From contig CM028325.1 of NCBI GenBank assembly GCA_016647705.1, positions 25,629,566-25,693,565 on the forward strand: a DNA stretch of 64,000 bases, given 5' to 3'. The notes beneath the pieces were generated by a model. The model worked only from the letters and a program-made list of their open reading frames with translations. It was not told the origin of the DNA and ran no database searches. Position 1 is the stretch's first letter. The number at the start of each line of letters is the position of its first letter. The position numbers and the translations under genes were made by a program. Source of the stretch: Eucommia ulmoides. Taxonomy: Eukaryota; Streptophyta; Magnoliopsida; Garryales; Eucommiaceae. Of this stretch, positions 13,001 through 61,179 are shown piece after piece.

Positions 13001-14460
13001 CGGCGATGCACGAGCTCCACTTCGCCGTTCCAATGGCCGGAGCAATTCTCTGTACACTCAACACCCGCCACGACTCCTCCATGGTTTCCGTCCTCCTCCA
13101 ACACTCAGAAGCCAAAATCTTGTTCGTCGATTACCAATTACTCGAAACAGCTAAAAAATCACTCCAACATATATCGGCTGTTGGTGGTGCAAAACCGCCG
13201 ATTCTTGTTTTGATCCCGGAATCTGGTGGCTCAGCCTCTTCCAATTCGTTTTCCTGCGACGGTTATGAATACGAGAGCCTCCTAGCCACCGGAGATCCTG
13301 ACTTTGTTATAAAACGACCGGAAAACGAATGGGATCCTATCAGTATAAATTACACTTCTGGCACGACTTCACGACCGAAAGGGGTGGTTTATAACCACCG
13401 GGGGGCATATCTTAACTCAATCGCGACGGTTTTTCTCCATGAAATGGGATCCATGCCAGTCTACCTCTGGACGGTGCCGATGTTCCACTGTAACGGGTGG
13501 TGCCTCATTTGGGGGGTGGCGGCAGTCGGCGGCACAAACATCTGCCTCAGAAAAGTAACTCCGAAAGCCATATTCGAGTGTATATCTCTCCATACGGTGA
13601 CAAATATGGGGGGAGCACCGACAGTTCTAAGCATGATTGTGAACTCGCCACCGGCCGACCAGCGGCCACTTCCACGCACGGTTGGAATAATGACTGGCGG
13701 TTCACCACCGCCACCACGGATATTGGCCGAGATAGAAGAGATGGGTTTTAGGGTTTCGCATCTATATGGTTTGACAGAGACTTACGGTCCAGCGATGTCA
13801 TGCATGTGGATGCCGGAGTGGGATGATTTGTCGAAAGTTGAGCGATTTAAGCTCAAGGCGAGGCAAGGGGTCCACCATTTCGGTCTCGAGGAGGTTGACG
13901 TGAAGGATTTGACCACAGGAGAAAGCGTTAAGGCCGACGGGAAAACCGCCGGAGAGGTCGTTTTCCGGGGAAATACCGTGATGAGTGGTTATTTCAAGGA
14001 TGAAAAGGCGACGAATGAGGCTTTTGCTGGGGGTTGGTTCCGGAGCGGTGACCTTGCAGTGAAGCATTGTGACGAGTATATTGAGATCAAGGACCGGCTA
14101 AAGGATATAGTGATTTCCGGCGGAGAGAATGTGAGCACGGTGGAGGTGGAGGCAGTTTTGTTCGGACATCCGGCGGTGATGGAGGCAGCAGTGGTGGGGC
14201 GGCCGGACGATCACTGGGGACAGACTCCGTGTGCTTTTGTGAAGCTCAAGGAGGGATTCGAGGTTAGTGGTGAAGAGATAATTGAGTTTTGCCGAGAAAA
14301 ATTGCCACATTATATGGCCCCAAAGACGGTTGTTTTTGAAGATATACCTAAAACTTCCACCGGAAAGATTCAGAAGTTTATTCTTAGGGAGAAGGCTAAG
14401 GCCATGGGAAGCCTTTCTCGAGTGGAAAATAGGAGTGACAAACTCCATGGAAATGTGTAA
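10086..14460 (+). CDS. Acyl-activating enzyme (AMP-forming acyl-CoA ligase), AAE2-like
   Basis: Two exons, 10086-10415 and 12976-14460 (phase-0 GT-AG intron), give 604 aa, close to the roughly 600 aa I recall for Arabidopsis AAE2. The ANL-family reaction activates a carboxylate with ATP to an acyl-AMP, then forms the CoA thioester; relatives use short or branched-chain acids. Visible motifs: P-loop [12 protein letters not shown] (about residues 236-247), YGLTETYGP (about 374-382), GWFRSGDL (463-470), KDRLKD with SGGEN (482-495), and STGK with the catalytic Lys at about 574. The first 40 residues are rich in Arg and Ser and lack acids until the end, as in mitochondrial presequences. The C-terminus (KLHGNV) has no peroxisomal SKL-type signal. 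Start chosen at the ATG in a CCACC context; an upstream in-frame ATG at 9978 would add an unlikely hydrophobic leader. The frame is intact. Substrate is inferred, not shown. Confidence 0.93.
11964..12105 (+). repeat. Dispersed repeat (SINE-like), copy 1
   Basis: It shares an ordered set of words with 14598-14722 and 25275-25405: ATAAGG-GT, then a CCA-CTTATGC-like word, ACTCACTTCT, GATTTTAAT and CAAGATTTAAT. The most diverged of the three copies. Some plant tRNA-derived SINEs carry a similar GCGCACCTCGACTAAT word, but I see no clear A/B box pair or tail, so the class is uncertain. Confidence 0.45.
12276..12822. mobile_element. MITE of the same GTTTGG family, 547 bp
   Basis: The ends GGCCCCGTTTGGTAACC and GGTTACTAAACGCCACC match the element at 4400-5030, and the internal flanks are nearly the same. 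The 3-bp flank is TAG on both sides (12273-12275, 12823-12825) rather than the TWA usual for PIF/Harbinger. It has a GC-rich core (12490-12630) and no coding capacity. It lies late in the acyl-CoA ligase intron, about 150 bp before the acceptor. Confidence 0.82.
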
Positions 14461-23619: not shown

Positions 23620-24965
23620 CAAAATTACCCCCCTCTCTCTCTGCAGGCAGTGGGCCCCGCCCCTCTCTCTCTCTCTGGCGCTGTGCAGTGGGCAGGCGGG
23701 CCTCGCCGTCTCTCTCTCTCTCTCTTCTCTCACCGCGCTCTCTCTCTCTCTCACTCACGGTTTGGACCCAAAAAGGGGCCCACTCCATTTTTTCTCATTT
23801 TTATTTTACTCCTTTATTCAGCATTCTTTCAATTTCAAACTCCCATTTTTTTATTTTTCAATTTCACACCTTTTTCTTTATTCCATTTTTCTTATTTCTT
23901 TTTTTTTTTTTTTTTAATATTTGGAACATTTCATTTGTTCCAAATTAAGTAGATATCTACTGAAAATAAATTAACTAGATATTTACTGAAAATAAATTAA
24001 GTAGATATCTACTGAAAATAAATTAAGTAGATATCTACTAAACATTACAGAACTCACTGTGTTTCTATAAGACTTGTAGGTGAAATTAAGTAAATATCCA
24101 CTGAACTAAAAAATATCACAAAGTACCACTTACATTGTTCTTCAAGAGATAACTTTTTAAGGACTATCATTTGTTCAAAAAATATAAAAAATAAAATAAA
24201 AATAGAATAAAGAAAAATGTGTGAAATTGAAAAAGGGGGCCCACTTCATTTTCTCCCATTTTCATTTTACTCCCTTTATTTAGCATTTTTTCAATTTGAA
24301 ACCCCCATTTCTTTATTTTTCAATTTCACACCTTTTTCTTTTTTCTTTTTTTATTTTTTATTTTTTTTATTTTTGGAACATTTCATTTGTTCCAAATTAA
24401 GTAGATATCTACTGAAAATAAATTAAGCAGATATCTACTAAACATTGCAGAACTCACTGTGTTTCTATAAGATTTGTAGGTGAAACTAAGTAGATATCCA
24501 TTGAACTAAAAAATATCACAAAGTACCACTTACATTGTTCTTCAAGAGACAACTTTTTAAGAACTATTATTTGTTCCAAAAATATATAAAAAAAAAATGG
24601 AATAAAGGAAAATGTGTGAAATTGAAAAATAAATAAATGGGGGTTTGAAATTGAAATAATTTTAAATAAAGGGAGTAAAATAAAAATGGGAGAAAAGGGA
24701 GTTGGCCTCTTTTTTGGGTCCAAACTGTGAGTGAGTGAGTGAGAGAGAGAAAGAAAAAAAAAAGAAACAAAAAGAGAGAGATCGGTGAGAGAGAGAGAGC
24801 AGGCGTGGGGCCCGCCTGCCCATTGCACAACGCCAGAGAGAGAGAGAGAGGCAGCAGGGCTCACCTGCCCACTGCACAGCTCTAGAGAAAGAGTGAGGCA
24901 GGGGGCCCGCTGCCCACTACACAGCGCCAGAAAGAGAAAGAGAAAGAGAGGCAGCGGGTCCCACC
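23620..24965. repeat. Fold-back element, apparently a tandem dimer
   Basis: The left arm (about 23625-23900) has CT repeats, GCAGTGGGC words, TTTGGACCCAAAAA, then AATTTCACACC. It is inverted at 24590-24960 as the right arm. Between them a core of about 220-270 bp (TTCATTTGTTCCAAATTAAG, AGATATCTACT, CAGAACTCACTGTGTTTC) occurs twice in direct order (23920-24190 and 24372-24590), separated at 24190-24370 by a truncated right arm fused to a truncated left arm. So the order is arm, core, broken arm pair, core, arm. No coding frame; the many small ORFs are translations of CT/GA repeats. Confidence 0.7.
24790..24950. repeat. GCAGTGGGC minisatellite in the right arm
   Basis: On the - strand a unit of about 45-50 bp, with GCTGTGCAGTGGGCAG followed by a CT run, is repeated four times; the left arm at 23640-23700 holds about two. 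The copy-number difference suggests arm-specific expansion after inversion. Confidence 0.6.
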
Positions 24966-25601
24966 GAGGGGCATGGATTTATAAATTATAAATCTTCTGA
25001 GGGACAAAATTGACAATTCAATTTTTATGGGAGTTTTGGGATGATCCAAAAATCCATGGTCCTTGAAAAGTTGTTTTTTAGTCATTTGGGACTGCAGAAA
25101 AAAAATTCCTTTTATTTTTAACAAAAAAAATTTGTAGTATAAAACAATCGTTATTTTTAAAATTATAAAGTTTTTAGTTTAAAAAAAAATACTAAAAAAT
25201 AAAACATAACCAAACCATGCCACATTTGTAATGGTTTTTTTTTTTTTTTTTGTGTGTGCGCGTGTGTGTGTGAGATAAGGTGTTGGCCATACCAACTTAT
25301 GCATACCTCGACTAATCACTTCTCTGGGTGATCTTAATGATGCACTTCTCTATGTCGACCTGGTACATTTATGATTAAATTTAAGATTTAATATTCGAAG
25401 TGCTCTCTAAGAGAGTCAAACACTGGTTAACGAAGAAAATAACACATTCTCTTATCAACCGAACTAATTAATTAGTATCTCCATTTCTTAAAGACATGTT
25501 AAAAACCTTTAGCAAATAGAATGTTGCAATTACTGGTACAACTATCTTAATGCAATTATCATTTTTCCAAAACACTCTCCTCAAAAAATTAGGGTACTAG
25601 T
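24966..25601. other. Unassigned DNA with one SINE-like repeat
   Basis: AT-rich with T-runs and a GT/GC dinucleotide stretch (25250-25272). Apart from the repeat at 25275-25405, nothing is recognised. Confidence 0.55.
25275..25405 (+). repeat. Dispersed repeat (SINE-like), copy 3
   Basis: Ordered matches to 14598-14722: AAGGTGTTGGCCATACCAACT, TGCATACCTCGACTAATCAC, GATCTTAATGATG, GTCGACCTGGTACATTTA and TTTAAGATTTAAT. Confidence 0.5.
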
Positions 25602-26252
25602 TGATGTTGCCAAAAAAATCCCCGGTACGTGTTTCAGACCCTCACGCGCCGGAAACCTTCGCAACCCGCAATTCGATCTGCAAAACCAGTTAGTTCTATG
25701 GGGGGGGGGGGGGGACACTGGTGTGGTGTCGGCCAAAGAACCTTCGGCATGAAAATAAGGTTAAATTGCTCAAAGATATAATGAAAGCTTTAGAGAGTAT
25801 ATTCAGTGTATTATCAAGAGTTGTGTTTTGATACCTATCTTTCCCGAATATATTAGTGTCGATTCCCCTTGTAATCGTTCTTGCCATGATTCTCTCCATG
25901 TTCCATAGTTAGTTGTCATGAATGTCTCTTGTGTGCCCATTATGGGATGATGCGTTAATCACATCCGCATATGGGGAGGAGGGTAGTTGAGGCAACAGTT
26001 ATCGTTGACCTACCATCCTTGTGTCTGATCCCCAGGCCTCTCACTAAAGGGCTTCACTTTGTATTGGGTCAGCCCATGCATGCGGTTGGGCCTCATCGGC
26101 AAACTAGGTGCTTCATCTCATTTGCCACTAGAGCCATCGGTCCACGATTAGATCGTAAATCCATTTCTACCGGGTCAGGTTTTATCCTCTGACCTGGTCT
26201 AACTTCTTAACACCGATTTCATAATTCACACATGAGAACTTTTCCCATATCA
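25602..26252 (-). repeat. 3' LTR of the Tat element
   Basis: TGATGTTGCCAAAA ... TTTTCCCATATCA, 651 bp. It matches the right LTR along its length, including a G-run (25700-25714, 15 G) that is 11 G in the other copy. Preceded by CTAGT. Confidence 0.88.
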
Positions 26253-26974
26253 TTTACCCTCCTAACTTCCGTGACGATTCGTCGAAGCGAGACGGAAGAT
26301 CATTTTTCTTCTGTTACAGTTCCTTGGTGTGTGTTTTTCTGAGGCTGTGATTCTGGCCTTATTCTAAATCTCTTGGTTGAGTCAAATTTGGTGAAGGTTG
26401 AGCCGGATACCAAGGTTGATGTGTTGTCGACCCCGCTGAGGTAATAGCGAAGACATTAGTAGCCGTGTTCAGAACTCTTGAGCCATTTGGTTGGGGACAA
26501 CACACTCCTGGTTAGGCTCAGCCCAATCCTGACCAGATTTAGTTCAGTGTTGGGTGAGGTCAACTCAATTCTGACCAAATTTTCACCCCACCCAGTGTGG
26601 ATTAGTATTAGTGTCTACTAAGCTCCGCTTCACACTTCTGCTAAACAGTGCAGATTAGCCGGGCACTGTTGGATTAATTAGTTGTCATTTCCACCTTTAG
26701 TCTTATTAGTTTTGTAATGATGACGCTCAGTAATTATGACTGGCCTTAAGCACCTATCTTACTTGATTTGGGAAACCGTCTTCTCTCTCTCGATATTTGT
26801 TGCCGCCATTTTGCTTCATGCATTATAAATAACCTGACGATTGAGTACTTTCCTGTCATTTCATGATCACTGGTTTGGCTATTTAAAGCCAGACCTCCTT
26901 AAGGTTTCTTTACACTTTTCCTTCTCAGTTTTTCTTCATTTCTTTTTTTTTCCTCTATTCATCTTGGTACGAAT

Positions 26975-27433
26975 ATGGCTTCGTTGTCGTCTGTTTTCGA
27001 TATTTTCAACGCCGTTCAGGCCGAACGGAAGAAGGAAGTTAAGCAAGGGTACCACTTTCGCCAACTCATGATGATGGCGAAGACCTTTGATGAAAGGCAT
27101 CTTAGAGTTCAGGCCATCAAGGATGCTAGTGTCCTTTATGCTTCCTTCGATGCCACCCATTTTTGCACGATATCCCAACTCCACGAACTTCGTGGTCAGT
27201 TACAGGCGGCGGAGAAACAAATCGAAGAGTTGCAAGCCCAATTGCACCTCTATAAAACCCACAACGATGTGCTTAAGGCGAAAAAAGAAAAGCTTCTAGA
27301 CAAGAACGAGGAGAAGAAGGAAAATATACGCTCCTTGGTTCTAGCGCTGAGCCAGTATGAAGTAGGCGACTTCTACCGCTCGAGTTCGGACTCCGAAGAC
27401 TTAGGCTCTTTGCCTTCTCCGGAGTTAGAGTAG
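26975..27433 (+). CDS. Antisense ORF (aORF) of the Tat element, coiled-coil protein
   Basis: An open 152-codon frame on the strand opposite to pol, between the 3' LTR and the tandem array. Tat-lineage elements are known to carry additional antisense ORFs at this place; their role is unsettled. The protein starts MASLSSVFDIFNAV. A long charged heptad-like stretch (about residues 68-120, HELRGQLQAAEKQIEELQ then KKEKLLDKNEEKKEN) predicts a coiled coil, followed by an acidic, Ser-rich tail (SSSDSEDLGSLPSPELE). No catalytic motif is visible. A possible TATA box, TATTTAAAG, lies about 95 bp upstream (26880), with a second TATAAATAA at 26824, as if it had its own promoter. The frame is intact although pol is broken, either by chance or because this part decays more slowly. 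Confidence 0.65.
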   Translation: MASLSSVFDIFNAVQAERKKEVKQGYHFRQLMMMAKTFDERHLRVQAIKDASVLYASFDATHFCTISQLHELRGQLQAAEKQIEELQAQLHLYKTHNDVLKAKKEKLLDKNEEKKENIRSLVLALSQYEVGDFYRSSSDSEDLGSLPSPELE

Positions 27434-27889
27434 TTTTTTATTTTTTTATTTTTTTTTGTTTTTGTAAAAAAGCCCTAAGAGTATTTTTTTTTGAACAGTA
27501 TAGGCTTATTAGTCACCAAATAAGCCCCTACATATGTAACTTCTTTTCCAGTCCAAACTCCATGGTAAGAAGTGATAAGTTCAAGACTGGAAAAGAACAA
27601 TATTTTGAGTAGGACTCCTATGGTGGTAAAATATAGTTACACTTGTTTTGTATCGACCCCATGGTAAGAAGTGATAAGTTCAAGATTTATTTTTTTTTGG
27701 ATTGTAATAAGAAACTATAGAAAAAATTGTGCATTAAATGATTTTCCATCATAGAACTTGTGTTCAAATATCATTCATAAAGTATGGTTTCTCAACCATA
27801 ATGTTTTAGGGATAATTAACGTTTGGGTAAATGGGAGTAAGTTTTCCAGCCATAACTTCTAATAAGGGTAAATGGGAGTAAGTTGTTGC

Positions 27890-28545
27890 GCCAGGCTGAT
27901 CTCTGCAATTTTGGTTGATTGGGAGTCGATGTGTTATTGTAGGTAACCCAATTGGTTGATGAGTTGAACTTGGCGACTCAGTCTAAGGATGAAGACTCGT
28001 TGACAAGTTGTTCTTGGCAGCTCGGTTTACAGGTGAACTGAGCTAGGTGGTTCAGCCAGTAGGAAGACTAACATTGATAGCTTGTTTGTCGGTGGACTGA
28101 GCTAGGTAGTTCAGCCGGTCGCAGAACTAATATTGACAGCTCATTTTATCAATGAACTGAGCTAGGCAATTTAGCCTATTAAGGAGTTAATATTGGTAGC
28201 TCGTTTTATCAGTGAACTAAGTTAGGCAGTTCAGCTGGTTGAAGAGCTGATATTGGCAGCTCATTTTATCAATGAACTACGCTAGGCAATTTAGCCGGAT
28301 GATGAGCTAATATTGGCAGCTCGTTTTATTGGTGAATCAGACTAGGCAATTTAGCCGGTTGAGGAGCTAACATTGGCCGTTTGTTTATTGGTGAACAGGG
28401 CTAGGCATTTCAGCCAGTTGAAGAGCTCTCGTTGGTAGCTCGGTTTACGAGTGAGCTGGGCTAGGCAATTTGATGATATGATAAGCTGATCTTGGCAGCT
28501 CAGTTATTGGGTGAGTTGACCTTGGCAACCCACTTTCAGACCATT
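27890..28545 (-). repeat. 60-bp tandem array in the Tat element
   Basis: About ten to eleven degenerate units containing GAGCTAGGCA-TTCAGCC and ATTGGCAGCTC, spaced about 60 bp. It lies between integrase and the antisense ORF, a position where Tat/Ogre-type elements often carry tandem repeats. Confidence 0.85.
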
Positions 28546-28769
28546 TTATATCCTAAGTTTGGGGGTCGTCTTCATTGAAACCTTTGACGAATACAAGTAG
28601 TTATGACTACTCATTAAAAAGTTTATAATCGAACTAGTAAATAGTCTTTTCTTCAAACCTTAATATAACAAATAACAAAGAACTCACATAAAGTATTTTC
28701 GTAAATGTGCAATGTTCCATGGCCGAGGAATTGGAACACCATCTAGATCTTCCAATCAGTACGTCCCAG

Positions 28770-31700
28770 GTCTATTCACCTTGATCACCTTGTATGGGCC
28801 TTCCCAGGTTGGAGCTAGATTTCCTAATCAGGCCTCTAAGAGGTGTGGCATTACCTTTCGAAACATTATCTCTCCCACTGTGAAGTGTCTTGGGTGAACT
28901 ATATGGTTTAACATCTTTGTCATCTTTGATTTGTAGGCCGCCATCCTCATCGCTGCTTGGTCCCATTTCTCCTTTAATTGGTCTAGCTCTTAGCGTATTT
29001 CTCTCTCGTTTTCTATGAGGTTGACCGTATTATCTCGCTTCGAAGGTAAACTGATCTCCACTTGGACCACTTCTTCCGTCCCATATATCATGGAGTAAGG
29101 CGTTTCTCTAGTAGTTGTGCTCCAAGTGGTACGGTAGGCCCACAAGATCGCTGGCAGCAATTCCACCCATTTTCCTTTGGCATCGTCCAACCATTTCTTT
29201 AGTGCTTCTTTGATTGACCTGTTTATTACTTCTGCTAGCCCATTTACTTGTGGGTAAGATGGGTTTGACGTCCGATTTTTAATTCATTGTACATTCAAGT
29301 AATATTTCCCCCAGTAAAAGAGATTCCGTTATCCAATATCAACACTTCCAGAATACCGAAACGACAGATTACTTGCTTCCAAATGAAGTTCTTAACCTCA
29401 TTCTCATCCACAATTACGAATGCATTAGTCTCCACCCATTTGGTGAAGTAATCGATCACCACTAATAGGTATTTCGTGTTCCCAGATGCTGGTGTGAATG
29501 GCCCTAGGACATCCATTCCCCATTAAGCAAAAGGCCATGAACTATGGATGGGTGTTTGCGTTTGAGAGAAAACTCGGATGTCATTCGAGAACCATTGGCA
29601 TTTGTCACACTTCTTGACGTACTTCTTCGCATCACTGTGCAGAGTCAGGCAGTAATACCCGATTGTAAGTGCCTTGTGTGCCAAGCTTCTTCCTCCCTAA
29701 TGGTTCCCACAAACTCTTTCATGAATTTCTTGCATTACAAGTGGTTTTCTTTGGTCGCAAGCAGAGCAACAAAGGCTGTGTGAATGATCTTCGGTATAAC
29801 TTACCGTCCAGCATGATGTATCTTGATAATTTGTATAAGATTTTTAGCGTTGCCTCTTAGTTGTTTGGTAATGTTCCCTCGCTCAAGTTGTGCACCAGAG
29901 GAGTTCTCTAGTCTTTATCTTGTCCCAACTTTCCAATACATGCACAACATTTAGTTTGAGCTAGTACAGTTGGTTGCGCCAAATAATCCACTACCTTAGA
30001 TTGTTGATCTGGACCGAAGGATGACGCTAGTACTGACAGCGCATTTGCTTTCTCATTCTCAGTCCTTGGAATAACTTTAATTTTGTAGTTGTCAAAGGCC
30101 TTTGTTAGCTCCTCCACTTTATCAACGTAGAGGCGTAACCTTCATTCGTTGACCACGTAAGCCACATTTATTTGGTTGAGTACGAGATGCGAAACTAATT
30201 TGGCCTCCACATAATGGGCCCCCAGTTCATTTGCTAAGGTCAGGCCCAAAATTACAACCTCGTATTCTATTTCATTGTTGAATGCTCTAAATCCGAGCTG
30301 TACAACCTTCTTGAGTTGATCACCCTCTAGGGTTTCTAGAATTATGCCAACTCCACATCCTTATGAGTTTGATCTCCATTAACCCATAATTTCCAAGGTC
30401 ATGTTGGAGTTATCAAACATTATCCGTCCTCCATGGTCTCCCCTTCTAGAGGTGTTAGCTTAGCAATGAAATCAACCAGTACTTGGCCTTTGATTATCGT
30501 CTTTGGTTTGTAGGTTACGTAGAATTCTCCCATCTCTACCACCTACTTCATGAGGCGGCCCAAAACTTTTGGCCTGTGCATTACTGCTCTAAGCGGCTGC
30601 TAAGTTAACACGTTGATTGCATGTGGTTGGAAGTAAGGTCGCAACTTCCGAGCTGCAGTTATCAGGGCTAAAGCGAGCTTCTCGAGTTCAGTGTAGCGAG
30701 TTTCTGCCAATACCAACGATTTATTTACATAGAATAATGGCCTCTGCCCTCCTGTGCATTCCTTTACTAATGCTGCACTGACCACAACAGTGGTGACTGC
30801 TAAGTAAAGGTATAGATCATCTCTTGGCTCAACCTTAGCTAAGGTTTCGACAGAGCCCAAGTAATCCTTGATGGACTACAAGGCATGCTCACTCTCTTCG
30901 TCCCAATGAAAATTCTTTCTCCCCCTCAAGATTTTGAAGAAAGTAGCGCATCTATCTATAAATTCAAAGATGAACCAGTTCACGGCCGCCAATCTTCCCA
31001 TCAACACCTGGACCTTAAGTATCGTCGTGGGGGACTTCATCCTTCCAATAGCTTCTATCTGTCCAGCGTCAGCTGTAATACCTTCCTTGTTCACCATGAA
31101 ACCTAAGAATTTTCCTGATGTTATACCGAAGGCACATTTCTCAGGGTTCAACTTCATATTATACTTCCGTAATATTATGAAAGCTTCTTCCAAATGCTCC
31201 AAATAATCTCCCTTCTCAGAAATTTTGACTAACATATTATCTATATAAACCTCCATAGTTGTTCCAATTCTTTCTTGGAACATATGTTCACCAGACGTTG
31301 ATATGTTGCCCCGATGTTTCTTAGATTGAAAGGCATCACTCTATAGCGAAACATATCTCTAGGGGTGATGAAAGTCGTTGCTTCCTTATATGAATGGTTC
31401 ATCTGTATCTGACTGTATCCTAAATAGGCATCCATCATCGATAATGACTCATACCCAGCAGTTGCGTCCACGATTTGGTCATTCTTGGGTATTGGGTAGC
31501 AGTCCTTGGGGCACACTTGATTAAGGTCAGTAAAGTCCACACACATCCTCCATTTTCTATTCATCTTCTTAACCAATGCATGGTTGGCTAGCCACTTTGG
31601 GTAGACTACCTCCCTTATATGCCCTATTATGAGCAATCTCTGTACTTCAAACTCGATAACCTATTTCTTCTCTGAATTGAACATTTTTCTCCTCTGTTTC

Positions 31701-32940
31701 ACTGGAGGGTAAGAACTCGAGATATCGAGTCGGTGAACCATCACCTTGGGGTAAATCCCCCCATGTCTTCAGGTGCCTAAGCCAACGCATTCAAATTTCT
31801 TTCTAATAATTGCATGAGTTTTTCCTCATCAAGTTTACTCAGCAAAGTACCAATCAACAATTTTTTGGTTCCTTGATTGAAAGTCAGTTCTCTAACTTGT
31901 TCAGTAGGTTAGAGAACCCTAGGATGCTCCTTGAAATCATTGATCTCTTGTGCTGAGCTATTGACCCAGATCAGTCCATTAGTCTGGGCTCTAACGATCC
32001 CTTGCTCTTGAGCTGCGCTGTTGATATAAGCTCTAACGGGATTTTGCTGTTGACCTGGATCATAGACCTGAAACCTATTCTGGCGCTAAGCTGGGCTACT
32101 GATCTGATGTCCAACGGGCCTTTACTGTAGAGCTGGGCCTTTGATCAAAGATCTGCTGGACCCCCACTCTTGGGTTGAGTTGTTGATTTGAGCTCTGATG
32201 GGTTTTTGCTCCCGTTGTTGGTCGATAGTCCCCTTCCACTTCTTAGTCATCGCTAAACATTGCTTAGATGTAGCCTGGACCTCTTGGATGGTGACCACCT
32301 CGCCATCCTTCACGTACTTGACATATTGATGAAGTGTTGATGCTATGGCTCCCATTGCATTGAGCTAAGGATGTCCCACGATAGCATTGTATGGGGTCGT
32401 TGAGTCCATTACTATGAATTCCATTGCTTTGGTTAATCCATCGCCATGTTCGCTAGTTGCGACAGGCAATGTGATCCTTCTTATTGGAGAGCTCAAGTTT
32501 CCATTAAATCCCACTATCAACATTTAGGTTGACTTAATGTCAGAAATGGGGACACCCATTTAGCTGAGTGTTTTAATGAAAATGATGTTCACTAAACTTC
32601 TGGTATCGATCAAAATCCTTCGTACCTTAAAACCGGAGATCCATAGCGTTATGACTAAAGTGTAATCATGGGGGCGAGCCATACCCGTGCCATCCTTGTT
32701 GTCGAATGTTATCACTGGTCCAGTTCCACTTGTTGACATCATCACTCCTCTACTATTTGGCTCTTGTCTGGCCTCATGGGTCTTTCTCTTTTGTTCACGG
32801 TCTATTTTTTCAGAGAGGAGGTGAACCATATTTATTCTAGAACTGAATCTAGGATTGTTGTTGGGGCTATCGTTCTGTATGTTGAAGGGAGTAGTGGCAC
32901 GAACTACGCTCGGAGCCTCCCTGCGTGTTTTTTTGCCCAT
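28770..32940 (-). pseudogene. pol of the Tat element (PR-RT-RH-RH-INT), broken
   Basis: In - strand order: a protease-like stretch near 32700-32560; reverse transcriptase at about 31640-30880 (WRMCVDFTDLNQ, PKDCYPIP, YRVMPF, and the LGFMVNKEGI block); Ty3-type RNase H at about 30860-30600 (PLFYVNKSL, RYTELEKLALAL); a second RNase H-like C-terminal stretch at about 30117-29908; integrase at about 29516-28990 (DVLGPF, VVIDYFTKWVE, then AYRTTWSTTTRETPY). The reading is interrupted many times. Domain order and the dual RNase H give the Tat assignment. Confidence 0.85.
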
Positions 32941-33048
32941 GGAGAGTGGGATCTCCTCTCCCTGGTTCAGATCTACTGCTCTTAACTGCGACTAACTCGC
33001 CTTGTCGGCGAACTTCTTTTTATTCAATTTCCTACAGACGGTGCCAAA

Positions 33049-35291
33049 TGATATTGCCAAAATACCCCCGGTATGTTATACGGCGGAGGATTCGATCCTC
33101 GTGTATTGACTACTCGCAAGTGTACAAGGTCAAAGTTTCAGTATAGTGTGATCATGAAAGATCGGGTTATCGTATCCACAGGGATTGGTGTCGTTACTAT
33201 CGAGTACTGCGTTTGTCATGACCTAACTGTATCTAGGCTAAAAATAAATGTATTTAATTAATTAAATTAATACTAATATAACCTAAATTAACTATACTAA
33301 TATACTAATGTGTTTTAGGGGAAAGAATTGTCTAGGGATTAACGTGTTTACAAATATGTGTTCGGTCTCAATTTACTCACGTTTATGGTGTTCGACCTAT
33401 TTGATAATCTCGGTATCTAAAACTCATCCGCCGCTTCTCCCGAGTGTAAGATGGGGGATATAATATAACTTCGTGTCAACGAAGAAGTCCCCCTCAACGT
33501 CTTAACGACCCTAGGTCGCGTGAGTCTCACCCCAAAGTCATTGATTGTATACAATCCAACTCTTGACCATGTCATTGGATCATCGCGTCGTGTTTACCCT
33601 ATCGACAATCTCGGTTCTAAAACTCTACCGCCACCTCTTCCGAGTGTAAGACGGGGGAATACATGACGTTGAGTCAACAAAGAAATCTCTCTCAATGTCT
33701 TAACGACCCTAGGTCACGTGAGTCTTGCCCCAACGTCATCGATTGTCCACAATCCTAACCCCGATCGGGTTATTTGATCGTGGCGTTTGTTTACCCTAAT
33801 CCGAATATGGGGTTTGTCAAACCCCGTATTTTCCATTTATCTATCTAAGCATGATAAACAAACAATACGCATAATCAAACTATGAAGAATAAACATAAAT
33901 GCAACACCAAAATCATCTAAACACATATTTATAAATTTATTGTTAATCCCTATACAATCCACATTTAACTCATGGTCATAACCGTATAAACATTAAAAGA
34001 ACAAGCTAAACATGCTCACAAAATCCTAAGTTATAAAAATAAGGGAAGAAATCAAATAACTTAGCCTCGTTCGAATATTAGCCACTAAGAACGCTCAACG
34101 ATCGCTTCCCCATCTTCTTCCACTTCGGGATGTGAGCTCTCCCTCTAAAACTCCTAAATCTAACCCTAAGTATAGCCCAAGAGGATCTAGTGGTCAGAGA
34201 GTTCAAGAGGAGAGGAGAGAGTATTTATAAGCAAAATATCTCAAAAATATCTAAAAAATATCTTAGGCAGTGCAGAAGTCACCGTCGTGGCGGTGAGTGG
34301 GTCGGTTAGTTGATCACCTAGGCGGTGAAGACAACGGTGGATTTGGTTGACATCTTGTACCTCCAGCATTGCAATGGTGGTATCGTGCCGCGACGGTGGA
34401 TGTTCAGCAAAGTAAGTCAGTTTCTGCATTTTCACCGCCGCGGCGGTGTGCTTCTTTCATAATATTGCCTCCAAGCTTGTTTTTCCACCGTTCTTCGACC
34501 ATTTTTTATTTTATCTCATCGTTTTCGCTCCAGTTTTCTATCTTTTTTGCCTCACACACCTAATTATACAAAAAGTATAAAAACTAATTAAAACATAATA
34601 AATAACTATAAAAATACTCTAAAACTAACAAAACCGATTTGAAAATATGTAGGTAGATCACACCTATCATATGTGTTTCAGGTCCTCACGTACCGAAAAC
34701 CTTCGCAACCCGTAATCCAACCTGTAAAACCAGTTAGTTCTATGAGGGGGGGGGGGACACTGGTATGGTGTCGGCTAAAGAACCTCCGACGTGAGAATAA
34801 AGTCAAATTGCTCAAAGAAATAATGAAAGCTTTAGAGAGTATATGCAGTGTAGGATTGAGAGTTGTGTTTTGATACCTATGTTTCCCGTATATATTTGTG
34901 CCAATTCCCCTTGCAACCGTTCTTGTCATGATCCTCTCCATGTTCCATATTTAGCTGCCGTGAATGTCTCTTGTATGTGATGCGTTAATCACATCCGTGT
35001 ATGGGAATGAGGGTAGGTGAGGCAACGGTTATCTTTGACCTACTGTCCTTGGGTCTGATGACTCTGATCCCTAGGCCTCCCACTAAAAGGCTTCGTTTTG
35101 CACTGAGTCAGCCCGTACATGCGGTTGGGCCTCATCGACAGACCAGGTGCTTCATCTCATGGGCCACTAGTGCTGTCGGTCCACGATTAAATCGCAAATC
35201 CATTCCTACCGAGTCAAGTTCTATTTACTGACTCGGCCCGACTCTTTAACACCAGTTTTGTAATTCACAAATAGGAAATTTTCCCACATCA
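33049..35291 (-). repeat. 5' LTR of the Tat element, carrying a nested LTR
   Basis: TGATATTGCCAAAA (33049) to TTTTCCCACATCA (35291). After leaving out the nested 33077-34669 insertion and one TATGT, about 645 bp remain, against 651 bp in the other LTR. Followed by CAAGT. Confidence 0.86.
33077..34669 (-). mobile_element. Solo LTR (TGATAGG family) inside the Tat LTR
   Basis: Flanked by a perfect TATGT duplication (33072-33076 and 34670-34674). On the - strand it starts TGATAGGTGTGATCTACC, the same start as the LTRs at 56265 and 59592, and shares their CCGCGGCGG palindromes and the roughly 200-bp internal duplication (33400-33800 here). 1,593 bp, no internal region: a fossil solo LTR younger than its Tat host. 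Confidence 0.88.
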
Positions 35292-35296
35292 CAAGT

Positions 35297-36004
35297 AGCT
35301 GACAGAAACTATTGTACCATATTCAATTACAGAGGATAAGAACCTTTAGCCATCACATGCTACATGGGCCCACATTAATTTATTGTTGTCTGCAAAGAGC
35401 AAAATGATTGGAGACCAGGGCGGCTCCACTGGATGGCCACCAAATTACAAATGACACATTATTTTAGAGAAAAGAAAATAAGGGTGCATTTTTTATGAAT
35501 AATAATAAATGCAGCATTTTTTCTTGATAAAAATAATTTATAAATATGAGGGGTTAGGATTAAGCCATCACAACAAGCTTCCAATAATTGGGGACTTCAT
35601 ATTATATTTATCACGTGAAATCGATGTCTTGAATGTTAAGCCGCATAAGAGTGTCAGAGGTTTTTGCACTTTGCACTAAAATTTGAGAGAAATCTCATTT
35701 TAGTTTATGTATTTTTAATTTTAACTCATTAAATTCTGAAATATTTAAATCGATTAAGTTAGTCATTTTATAATTTTTTTTGACGAAATTCATTGACGTG
35801 CATGATTTTATATTTGACATGTGACTGATTTCTGTTATAAAGAATTACATAATTATCTATTTAAATTGACTTGTCACTATTTAGATACTTTATAATTTAA
35901 TGTGTTTAAATAGAAAATATAGAGGTTCAAAGAGAGAATTTTTTTTTCAAGGGTGGGAAGTGCAAAAATCACAAAAATATTATGCAAAACATGTGGAGAT
36001 TTAA
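35297..36004. other. Unassigned AT-rich DNA
   Basis: No gene or repeat recognised between the Tat element and the next transposon. Confidence 0.6.
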
Positions 36005-55702: not shown

Positions 55703-56264
55703 TGGTAGCGCGTGAATACGTCGCTACTTTCACCGCAAGTGTATGAGTCAAGTTTTAGAATAGATTGAAAGAGTTAGGGTTTTCATATCTACAGGAATTG
55801 GATTAGACGGTCGTTGAGTACCGCGATTATCATAACCGAACTTTATTTAGGCAATAAAAATTATAGGTTTTTATAAATAATATAATAAATTAATTAACTA
55901 AATAAACTAATTAATCTAATAAACTAATATTAATGTTTATGGGAGTAAATTGTCTTGGGATTAACTTCTTCCACTTAAATGTGTTCGTTTCAATCAAGTT
56001 TACATTAACGACATTTATCCTATCCGACAATATCGGTATCAAAATCTCATTTACTACCTCTCCCAAATGTAAAGTGAATGAATATGTGACTTCGCATCAA
56101 CGCCGAAGTCCTCTCGAGCGTCTATACGACACTTGGTCACATGAGTCTTGCCCCAACGTCACGGATTGCACACTTTCTAACTCTCTCCCTGGTCATTAGA
56201 TCATCGCGTTGTATTTAAACTCTAGTCCGAATTCGGGGTTACCTCTCTCGAGTGTCAAACCGCA

Positions 56265-57665
56265 TGATAGGTGTGATCTACCTATATATTTTAAGACCGA
56301 TTTTGTTAGTTTTAGAGTAGTTTTTATAGCATTTTTATTATGTTTTAGTTAGTTTTTATTATTTTTGTATAAATCAGGTGTGTGGGGGTAAAAAGATAGG
56401 AAAACAGAGCGAAAAAGATTAGATCGAACCAAAAACAGTCGAAGAACGGTGGAAAAACAAGCTCGAGGGCAATATTTTGAAAGAAGCCCACCACCATGGC
56501 GTCCAGACCTCCGCTGCGGCGGTGAAAATACAGAGAAGACCCTATCTTGCTGAATGTCCATCGCTACAACTATGATATTCATTGCCTAGGCGATAAAATT
56601 GCAGGATGGTTACCAAATCCACCGCTGTCTTCACCGCTGCGGTGATCACTAACCGATATACCCACTGTCGCAGCGGTGACCTTTGCACAGTTTAGATATT
56701 TTTTAAGATATTTTTGAAATATTTAGCCTATATAATCCTCTTTCCTCTCTTATTTTCGCTCTCTCTTGCATGCTATCACCCTTACAACATACCTAGGGGT
56801 GGATTGAGGAGTTTTAGAGGGATAGCTCACATCCCGAATGAGAAGAAGACGACGAAGCAATCATTGAACGATTCTTAGTGACAAATCTTCAGACTAGGCT
56901 AAGTTCTTCGATTTCTTCCTTTATTTCTTTAATTTAGGAATTTGTGAGCATGTTTAGCTCGTGCTTTATTGTAAATACAGTTATGGCCGTTAGTTAAACA
57001 TAGATTATATAGGGATTGACAATATATTTATAAATATGTGATTTGTATGATTTCGATGTTTCATTTACGATTGTTCTTTGCTATTTTGATTGTGTTTATT
57101 GTATTGTTCTATTTATTATGCTTAGATAGAGCGGACTAGGGTAAACATAACACGACGATCCAATAACCTGAGAGGGAGTTGGATTGTGGGCAATCGATGA
57201 CGTTGGGGCAAGACTCACGTGACCTAGGATCATTAAAACGTTGAGGGGGACTTCGTCATTGACACGAAGTCGTGTATTCCCTTGTCCTATACTCGGGAGA
57301 GGTGGCGGGAGAGTTTTCGAACTGAGATTGTTGATAGGGTAAACACAACGCGACGATCCAATAACCCAGGAGGGGGTTGGATTGTGTACAATCAATGATG
57401 TTGGAGTGAGACTCACGTAACCTAGGGTCATTAAGACATTGAGAAGGACTTCTTCGTTGACATGAAGTTGCGTATTCCCTCGTCTTACACTCGGGAGAGG
57501 TGGCAGGGGAGTTTACGAATTGAGATTATCGTTAGGGGTAATCGCAGTAATCGATAATAATCAACCCTAATACCTAGGAACACGATACCCTTACTCTCCC
57601 CAACTATACTAAAACTTGACTCATACATTTGCGGTGAAAGTGGGGACGCATAATTGCGGCCACCA
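56265..57665 (+). repeat. 5' LTR of the LARD-like element
   Basis: 1,401 bp. It contains CCGCTGCGGCGGTG palindromes (56508-56660) and a tandem pair of about 200 bp (57120-57330 and 57330-57530), each with ACGATCCAATAACC, GACTCACGTGACCTAGG, and ACTCGGGAGAGGTGGC. Confidence 0.82.
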
Positions 57666-58965: not shown

Positions 58966-59591
58966 CACATAAAAAAAATTACATTTTTTGTTGACAAGTG
59001 AGTACTACATTCTTAACGTATGTTCAGGGTTGTTTCTAATTTAACTGTGGGATTTCAAGAGTGAATGTGCCAAGCGTTGAGCCTTAGGTAACGTTAAGTT
59101 AACAACGTTAACGCATTTTCTTTTCCAAAATATCCTTGGCCAAATATTCCATAACCGAACCAAGTCCTTCTGATCCCTATGAGCTTCCAAGCCTACATTA
59201 GTGGAGAGTGGACCCCAATCCGGTATATAGAAATCCTAGTCCTATACGGTCTAAGTCATGAGTTTCGTTGGTAGATAATCCAATCCGGTCATTGTATAGT
59301 TATATTATTGATTCTCGCACTAACACATTTACAGGATCTAGAATGACGTTCACCATTATTGCATGTCGAAATTTAAGAACCACATGATGTGTTTTACCAC
59401 TTGAACTCGATATGACTGGCGGTTGTTGAGGGAAAAATGACTTGGTCGTTGGAAGAATTCAAAACTGGAATATCATTATGTTTAGATTATTTTTAGGTTG
59501 TTTGTTATTTAATTTAGTTGTGTGTTTTATTTTTTATTTTCATGTGTGTGTTTTGCTCAAGAACTAGCAAAATTTCAAGTTTGAGAGTATT

Positions 59592-61179
59592 TGATAGGTG
59601 TGATCTACCTATATATTTCCAAACCGGTTTTGTTAGTTTTAGAGTAATTTTTATAGCACTTTTATTATGTTTTAATTAATTTTTATTCTTTTTGTATAAA
59701 TCAGGTGTGTGGGGGTGAAAAGATATGAAACCGGAGTGAAAATGATTAGATTGAACCAAAAATGGTTGAAGAACGGTGGAAAAACAAGCTCGAGGGCAAT
59801 ATTCTAAAAGAAGCCCACTGTCGCGGCGGTGAAAATGCAGAGAAGACCTTATCTTGCTAAACATCTACTACTGCAGTGGTGATATTGGCTGTGAAACTGT
59901 TGGATGGTCACCAAATCTACCACTGCAGCGGTGATATAGCCGACATACCCACCGCCGCGGCGGTGACCTCTGTATAGTTTAGATATTTTTGAGATATTTA
60001 GCCAATATAATCCCCTCTCCTCTCTCATTTTCTCTCTCTATTGCATGCTACCACCTTTGGAATATATCTAGGGGTGGATTGAGGAGTTTTAGAGGGAGAC
60101 CTCACATCCCGAAAAAGAAGAAGACGACGAAGCGATTGTTGAATGGTTCTTAGCGACAAATCTTCAGACTAGGCTAAGTTCTTCGATTTCTTCCTTTATT
60201 TCTTTAACTTAGGGAATTTGTGAGCATGTTTAGCTCATGCTTTATTGTAAATATGGTTATGGCCGTTAGTTAAACATGGATTGTATAGGGATTGACAATA
60301 TATTTATAAATATGTGATTTGTATGATTTTAGTGTTTTGTTTATGATTATTCTTCGCTATTTTGATTGTGTTTATCGTATTGTTATGTTTATTATACTTA
60401 GATAGATATATCGAGAATTTGGGATTTGACACTCGGAAGAGGTAATCCCAGATTCGGATTAGGGTAAACATAACGCGACGATCCAATAACCCAGGAAAGA
60501 GTTAGATTGTGGGCAATAGATGACGTTGGGGTAAGACTCACGTGACCTAGGGTCGTTAAGACGTTGAGGGGGACTTCTTCGTTGACACGAAGTTGCGTAT
60601 TCCCTCATCTTACACTCGGGAGAGGTGGAGAGAGAGTTTTCGAACTGAGATTGTCCATAGGGTAAACACAACACGATAATCTAATAACCCGAGAGGGAGT
60701 TAGATTGTGTGCAATCAATGATGTTGGAGCGAGACTCACGTGACCTAGGGTCGTTAATACGTTAAAGGGGACTTCTTCGTTGACACGAAGTCGCGTATTC
60801 CCTCGTCTTATACTCGGGAGAGGTGGCGGGGGAGTTTACGAACTGAGATTGTCAGATAAGTCGAATGCCGTTAACGTGAACTAAAACGAGATCGAACACG
60901 TATTTGTAAACGAAGTTGATCCCTAGACAATCTATTCCCTCAAAACTATCTCAATATAATATTAGTATAGTTAATTTAGTTAGTTTAATTAAATTAGTAT
61001 TAGTATTTAATTTTATTCAATTTATTTTCACTTAGATAAAATTAGGTTATGATAATCGCGGTAATCGATAATAATCACAACCAATCCCCATGAACACGAT
61101 ACTCTTACTCTCCCCAACTATACTAAAACTTAACCCGTACATTTGCGATGAAAATGGCGATGCGTAATTGCGGCCACCA
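59592..61179 (+). repeat. 3' LTR of the LARD-like element
   Basis: 1,588 bp, same start and end as the 5' LTR, with perfect CACCGCCGCGGCGGTG near 59950 and the same 200-bp pair (60460-60850). It is longer than the 5' LTR by about 190 bp. Confidence 0.82.

Follow-up and report, generated by a model that had tools for sequence, protein, structure and literature searches.

What is a frame of 152 codons doing open, on the strand opposite to pol, inside a retrotransposon whose own pol is in pieces? The frame runs from an ATG to a TAG stop at positions 26975-27433 of the plus strand, encodes 152 aa, and is stop-free already from 26903; it lies in a 64-kb window, by which we mean the whole stretch of DNA that was analysed. 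With a rough probability of 0.7, we read it as a genuine coding frame of the antisense additional kind (aORF-3R, or eORF-3'R), belonging to an Ogre/Retand-type Ty3/gypsy element that is old and dead, and we infer an accessory-protein role for it. This reading draws on a period-3 coding signal of 6.82, on the gene order pol, array, antisense ORF, 3' LTR, and on two collinear RVT_3 pieces between RNase H and integrase. Several points count against it: 152 aa is shorter than the antisense ORFs listed for common bean, the TATA words upstream are ordinary, neither a gag match nor a target-site duplication was found, and the RVT_3 and rve matches fall below their cut-offs.

The host is a Ty3/gypsy element on the minus strand, with LTRs that form a direct repeat about 9.04 kb apart and that both, read on that strand, start with TGAT and finish with CA. 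Its minus-strand order, 5' to 3', is protease-like frame, reverse transcriptase, RNase H, RVT_3-type RNase H, integrase, 60-bp array, antisense ORF and 3' LTR:

34674-35291, minus strand: 5' LTR, 618 bp, from repeat and alignment
32560-32991, minus strand: frame upstream of the reverse transcriptase, protease-like by eye, without a Pfam match
30876-31660, minus strand: reverse transcriptase, in two frames (Pfam)
30603-30875, minus strand: RNase H piece (RT_RNaseH) adjoining the reverse transcriptase, E 2.6e-12
29911-30360, minus strand: second RNase H (RVT_3), split into two collinear pieces, with RNase H and integrase on either side
29298-29522, minus strand: integrase core piece (rve), E 2.2e-05, 25.1 bits, under the Pfam cut-off of 32.6
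28684-28771, minus strand: final stretch of the integrase frame by three-frame translation, with the pol end at about 28684
28014-28528, minus strand: 60-bp units in tandem, separating pol from the antisense ORF, from a repeat search
26975-27433, plus strand: candidate antisense additional ORF (aORF), 152 aa, in three parts (N-terminal 60 residues; coiled-coil pattern at about 63-121; acidic tail at 128-152)
25630-26252, minus strand: 3' LTR, 623 bp, TG...CA on the minus strand

The frame at 32560-32991 we take to be protease-like from a motif, and the stretch at 28684-28771 has the look of an integrase C-terminus; Pfam gave no match in 28775-29283. The two RVT_3 pieces lie at 29911-30141 (profile positions 86-120, E 4.4e-04, 20.6 bits) and 30145-30360 (profile positions 16-77, E 0.095, 13.1 bits), both under the cut-off of 21.6. 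A purine-rich stretch on the minus strand adjoins the 3' LTR from 26253 and resembles a polypurine tract. We considered a 3' LTR reaching as far as the pyrimidine tract near 26900 and rejected it, as the clear similarity in the alignment ends at 26252. No target-site duplication was found, the 5 bp outside each LTR being different, and no gag match was obtained among nine minus-strand pieces of at least 75 aa. Rfam gave no match at the gathering score over 25000-36000.

The space in which one would look for gag, from the protease-like frame to the 5' LTR, is filled by a 1.5-kb repeat with 198-bp tandem subunits (33168-34672), of which there is a copy at 59589-61101 (77%) and a partial one at 56264-57530 (76%), in opposite orientation. 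At most a few bases separate this repeat from the 5' LTR, and thus gag and the primer binding site seem to be gone or displaced. Two other repeat structures were noted: a 30-bp direct repeat (97%) right after the ORF, at 27557-27586 and 27656-27685, 99 bp apart; and, about 0.7 kb beyond the 3' LTR, a foldback-like region (23646-24914) with a G+C-rich tandem array of 49-bp units and inverted arms, among them arms of 80 nt (83%) and 138 nt (86%).

The LTRs have diverged by a K2P distance of 0.174 over 609 aligned sites (74 transitions, 18 transversions and 3 indels), which corresponds to about 6.7 or 12.5 million years at substitution rates of 1.3e-8 or 7e-9, respectively. Covering the minus strand from 32991 to 28712 (4280 bp) requires 25 stop-free pieces in any frame. 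The plus strand over these positions requires 47, and 500 random sequences required 45.4 on average (sd 4.0), none of them as few as 25. The minus strand here is coding-like yet cut at least 24 times, if the entire stretch was coding; the part from reverse transcriptase to integrase (31660-28712, 2949 bp) takes 17 pieces, or at least 16 breaks, and both break counts are lower bounds.

We take RVT_3 to be the second RNase H (aRH) of the plant elements. In this element it lies between RNase H and integrase, in the order RT_RNaseH, two RVT_3 pieces, rve (with RVT_3 and rve under their cut-offs); Neumann 2019 (PMC6317226) gives this place to the second RNase H in both Ogre and Retand, and describes the extra ORFs as highly divergent. 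The host element therefore looks like a member of the Tat clade of Ogre/Retand type, as judged from its domain order. The position and orientation expected of an aORF-3R, antisense to pol and between pol and the 3' LTR, are found as well. Two domains were sought by Pfam and not found. Transposase_28 (PF04195), present in 97% of active clusters, gave no match in the ORF or in any of the ten other plus-strand pieces of at least 40 aa (eight searched at E up to 10, two at E up to 1), a scan that covered pieces of this size only, so that a shattered remnant could lie in shorter ones. The plant mobile domain (PF10536), which many Ogre elements carry, was not found in the ORF.

To what extent could such a frame be an accident? 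The window has 11 frames that begin with ATG and reach 110 codons, and only one of them exceeds its period-3 signal of 6.82, a 484-codon frame at 13006-14460 with 9.09. A sliding-window scan of the 64 kb attained 6.82 in just 5 of 1115 windows, and none of 2000 base shuffles did. Length is a weaker criterion: dinucleotide shuffling of the element produced an ATG frame of at least 152 codons in 7 of 200 trials, shuffling of 26253-27960 did so in 3 of 1000, and a third-order Markov simulation of the element gave an ATG frame as long as the ORF in 37 of its 1500 elements. No simulated element (0 of 1500) had both the length and a period-3 of 6.82 or more. The control is based on composition, so that the K/E/Q-rich helix adds to the signal, this being itself a coding property. 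The length alone is only moderately unusual, and with the coding periodicity added, chance is very unlikely. A frame open by accident would account for the 7 shuffled elements with an equal length, but neither for the joint result in the simulated elements nor for the periodicity that base shuffles never attain, and we ruled this candidate out on periodicity plus length, length being insufficient; its probability is practically negligible.

What an earlier note on this DNA had observed from the letters alone is borne out by these results. The 152-codon frame is uninterrupted and opposite to pol (the ORF on the plus strand; the reverse transcriptase, RNase H, RVT_3 and rve pieces on the minus strand), it does lie between the tandem array (28014-28528) and the 3' LTR (25630-26252), and pol is indeed broken many times, by either of the counts above. 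The assignment to Tat-type antisense additional ORFs also agrees with the published position and orientation, the real coding character and the RNase H order. Its interpretation is supported in this part; transcription from an own promoter and a regulator role are still proposals, and the geometry of the locus weakens its suggestion of an RNA opposing pol transcripts.

That suggestion came together with a proposed promoter, and three features upstream of the ATG bear on it:

26824-26831, plus strand: TATAAATA, TATA-box-like, 151 bp before the ATG
26880-26888, plus strand: TATTTAAAG, TATA-box-like, 95 bp before the ATG
26903-26974, plus strand: pyrimidine-rich, ATG-free stretch, a possible 5' leader, recognised by eye

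The TATA-like box about 95 bp upstream is where it was said to be, but it does not exceed chance: the window holds 2 copies of TATTTAAAG, where 2.54 would be expected. For TATAAATA, shuffles predict 8.84 copies and the window has 29, some of them inside repeats. With counts as ordinary here as these, neither word singles out the site upstream of the ORF. The start context has A at -3 and G at +4, and together with the pyrimidine-rich leader it would fit a plant gene start with a putative promoter.

The pol frame ends at about 28684, some 1.25 kb beyond the ORF stop at 27433; thus a short antisense mRNA would oppose the 3' untranslated stretch and not pol, unless there were read-through. This bears on the possibility that the antisense RNA, and not a protein, was the working product, pairing with the genomic RNA and feeding small-RNA silencing or dampening the element. 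The available text of a review (PMC7264820) raises such a role, and reports antisense transcription of Grande and weak expression of Retand antisense ORFs. A pure RNA role, however, leaves the strong coding periodicity unexplained, and by the geometry the RNA would face the 3' untranslated stretch alone. We regard it as unlikely.

If the product was a protein, what kind of protein would it be? Residues 63-121, approximately, carry a heptad pattern with L/I/V/M at positions a and d, and the heptad values are matched by 16, 10 and 3 per 1000 shuffles for spans of 28, 42 and 56, respectively, in agreement with the coiled coil proposed earlier. The acidic tail that had been described alongside it is likewise present, with seven D/E and one K/R in the last 25 residues (128-152). 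Pfam returned 13 weak families at E up to 1, all under their curated cut-offs. The best of these are Phage_scaffold (2.5e-04), Tropomyosin (5.5e-04) and DUF4140 (1.2e-03), with xRRM at 2.1e-03 when the frame is extended upstream, again under the curated cut-off. Several are coiled-coil models over residues 64-130 (Tropomyosin, Phage_scaffold, DUF948, YabA, Rab11-FIP3), and we read the weak matches as helix or coiled-coil composition and not as kinship. The matches to DUF4140, DNAJ_related and xRRM extend into the N-terminal part, and beyond composition we have no explanation for them; the first 60 residues have no convincing Pfam match. A phmmer search of solved structures gave no match at E up to 0.01. 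Sequence patterns run against viral and prokaryote contigs matched 29 and 103 stretches, none of them a relative, although this contig set is uninformative for a plant element.

Published elements offer close comparisons. In Retand elements the interval from pol to the 3' LTR regularly carries ORFs in antisense orientation, some of them with coiled-coil ("Smc") matches, according to Vicient 2025 (PMC11963269). The Retand antisense ORFs described there (TRP28/Transposase_28 and others) share with ours the antisense orientation, the place between pol and the 3' LTR, an array beside pol and a similar LTR size, and the coiled coil here has its counterpart in the "Smc" matches of some there. They differ in that our ORF has 152 aa and Transposase_28 was not found in it. 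The stretch from pol to the 3' LTR is about 2.43 kb, compared with 2.93-6.57 kb in the active Retand clusters of that source, and since it falls under their range the present copy may be cut down. A cut-down copy would explain both the short size and the missing Transposase_28, as would a family without the domain; the same source reports two clusters lacking it.

Other families offer parallels of the same kind. Gao 2014 (PMC4093653) describes, in the part available, an ORF2 in opposite orientation in 15 common-bean Ty3-gypsy families (pvRetro13 and others), 211-939 aa long and in some cases with an SMC match; ours, at 152 aa, is shorter than any in that range, and it is likened to them by description and not by sequence. 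Gene23 of maize Grande (Gomez-Orte 2013, as cited in the available text of PMC7264820) is an antisense accessory gene that likewise follows pol and precedes the 3' LTR; it is reported to have a promoter of its own and to encode a nuclear protein, whereas TATA-like words are all that we have here. The antisense ORF4 of Silene Retand (from the same text) shares position and orientation, but has the Transposase_28 not found here.

The strong coding signal, the good start context and the failure to find Transposase_28 also speak for another candidate, a piece of a host gene captured in reverse by a single element or a few. The ORF sits, however, at the usual place of antisense ORFs in this class of element, and captured genes are usually in the sense orientation, as the available text of PMC7264820 has it. 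Capture is therefore distinctly unlikely, and we prefer the antisense additional ORF.

Why the frame is still open is a separate matter. A neutral simulation with the LTR divergence and indel rate gives a survival probability of 0.076 for an open frame of 459 bp, or 0.25 with substitutions alone; the break rate of 32991-28712 likewise gives 0.076 for no break in 459 bp, and that of 31660-28712 gives about 0.08. Because the frame was picked for being open, a survival of about 0.08 is unremarkable, and openness is weak evidence of selection. One might suppose that the frame has been domesticated and is under present host selection, hence open in a ruined element. It has indeed stayed open despite an LTR K2P of 0.174, with survival chances of 0.076, 0.076 and about 0.08 by the three estimates, and the real chance may be lower still, since breaks can only have been undercounted. 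Yet 0.08 is not rare for a frame chosen as open, and the 32991-28712 estimate assumes that the entire stretch was coding, so that domestication is a slim prospect. The frame most likely stayed open mainly through its shortness; its coding character is inherited from the active family and does not by itself speak for a working copy.

Taking the frame as an antisense additional ORF, we would picture its past as follows. During the active life of the family, to judge from relatives, a promoter in antisense direction shortly before the ORF would have yielded a small mRNA. The mRNA would have been translated into a small accessory protein able to oligomerise through its coiled coil, and this protein, again by analogy with relatives, would have been nuclear and may have acted on the element's own expression or integration. 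A regulatory role of this sort has been proposed in print for related antisense ORFs, in the sources as far as available. The present copy is, in our analysis, most likely a relic of a gene for an accessory coiled-coil protein, its function being a matter of analogy.

A bolder proposal would be that Ogre/Retand-type elements include a class of compact coiled-coil proteins, antisense accessory products of about 150 aa that lack Transposase_28, and that the floors of two large surveys (at least 200-250 codons) have left it under-catalogued. The present copy would then keep its frame because the product still acts, perhaps as a dimer binding or titrating the longer antisense proteins of active relatives. 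We consider this quite improbable. The size floors are themselves real, at 250 codons in one survey and 600 bp in another as given in the available text, and the 152-aa ORF falls below both. Going by these floors and by searches of the literature, short antisense ORFs are little catalogued, but the minimum length of 300 in a sunflower study, and the inclusion by Vicient 2025 (PMC11963269) of shorter ORFs holding Transposase_28, both as far as the available text goes, count against that.

The kind of ORF described here has already been published; what is new is a short antisense example whose coding signal is clear. What antisense ORFs do in plant LTR-retrotransposons is called an open question in PMC7264820, and a 152-aa ORF of this sort would be a convenient small form on which to test it. 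The ORF also points to a size class under the floors of two large surveys (250 codons; 600 bp, by their available text), although a single relic copy by itself leaves the overall picture unchanged.

Two further coding signals were noted elsewhere in the window. The 484-codon frame at 13006-14460, which has the top period-3 value among the ATG frames, has a putative product that we take, by motif, to resemble an AMP-binding acyl-activating enzyme. The sliding windows with the highest period-3 (up to 7.8) lie at 286-912, which is probably an exon.
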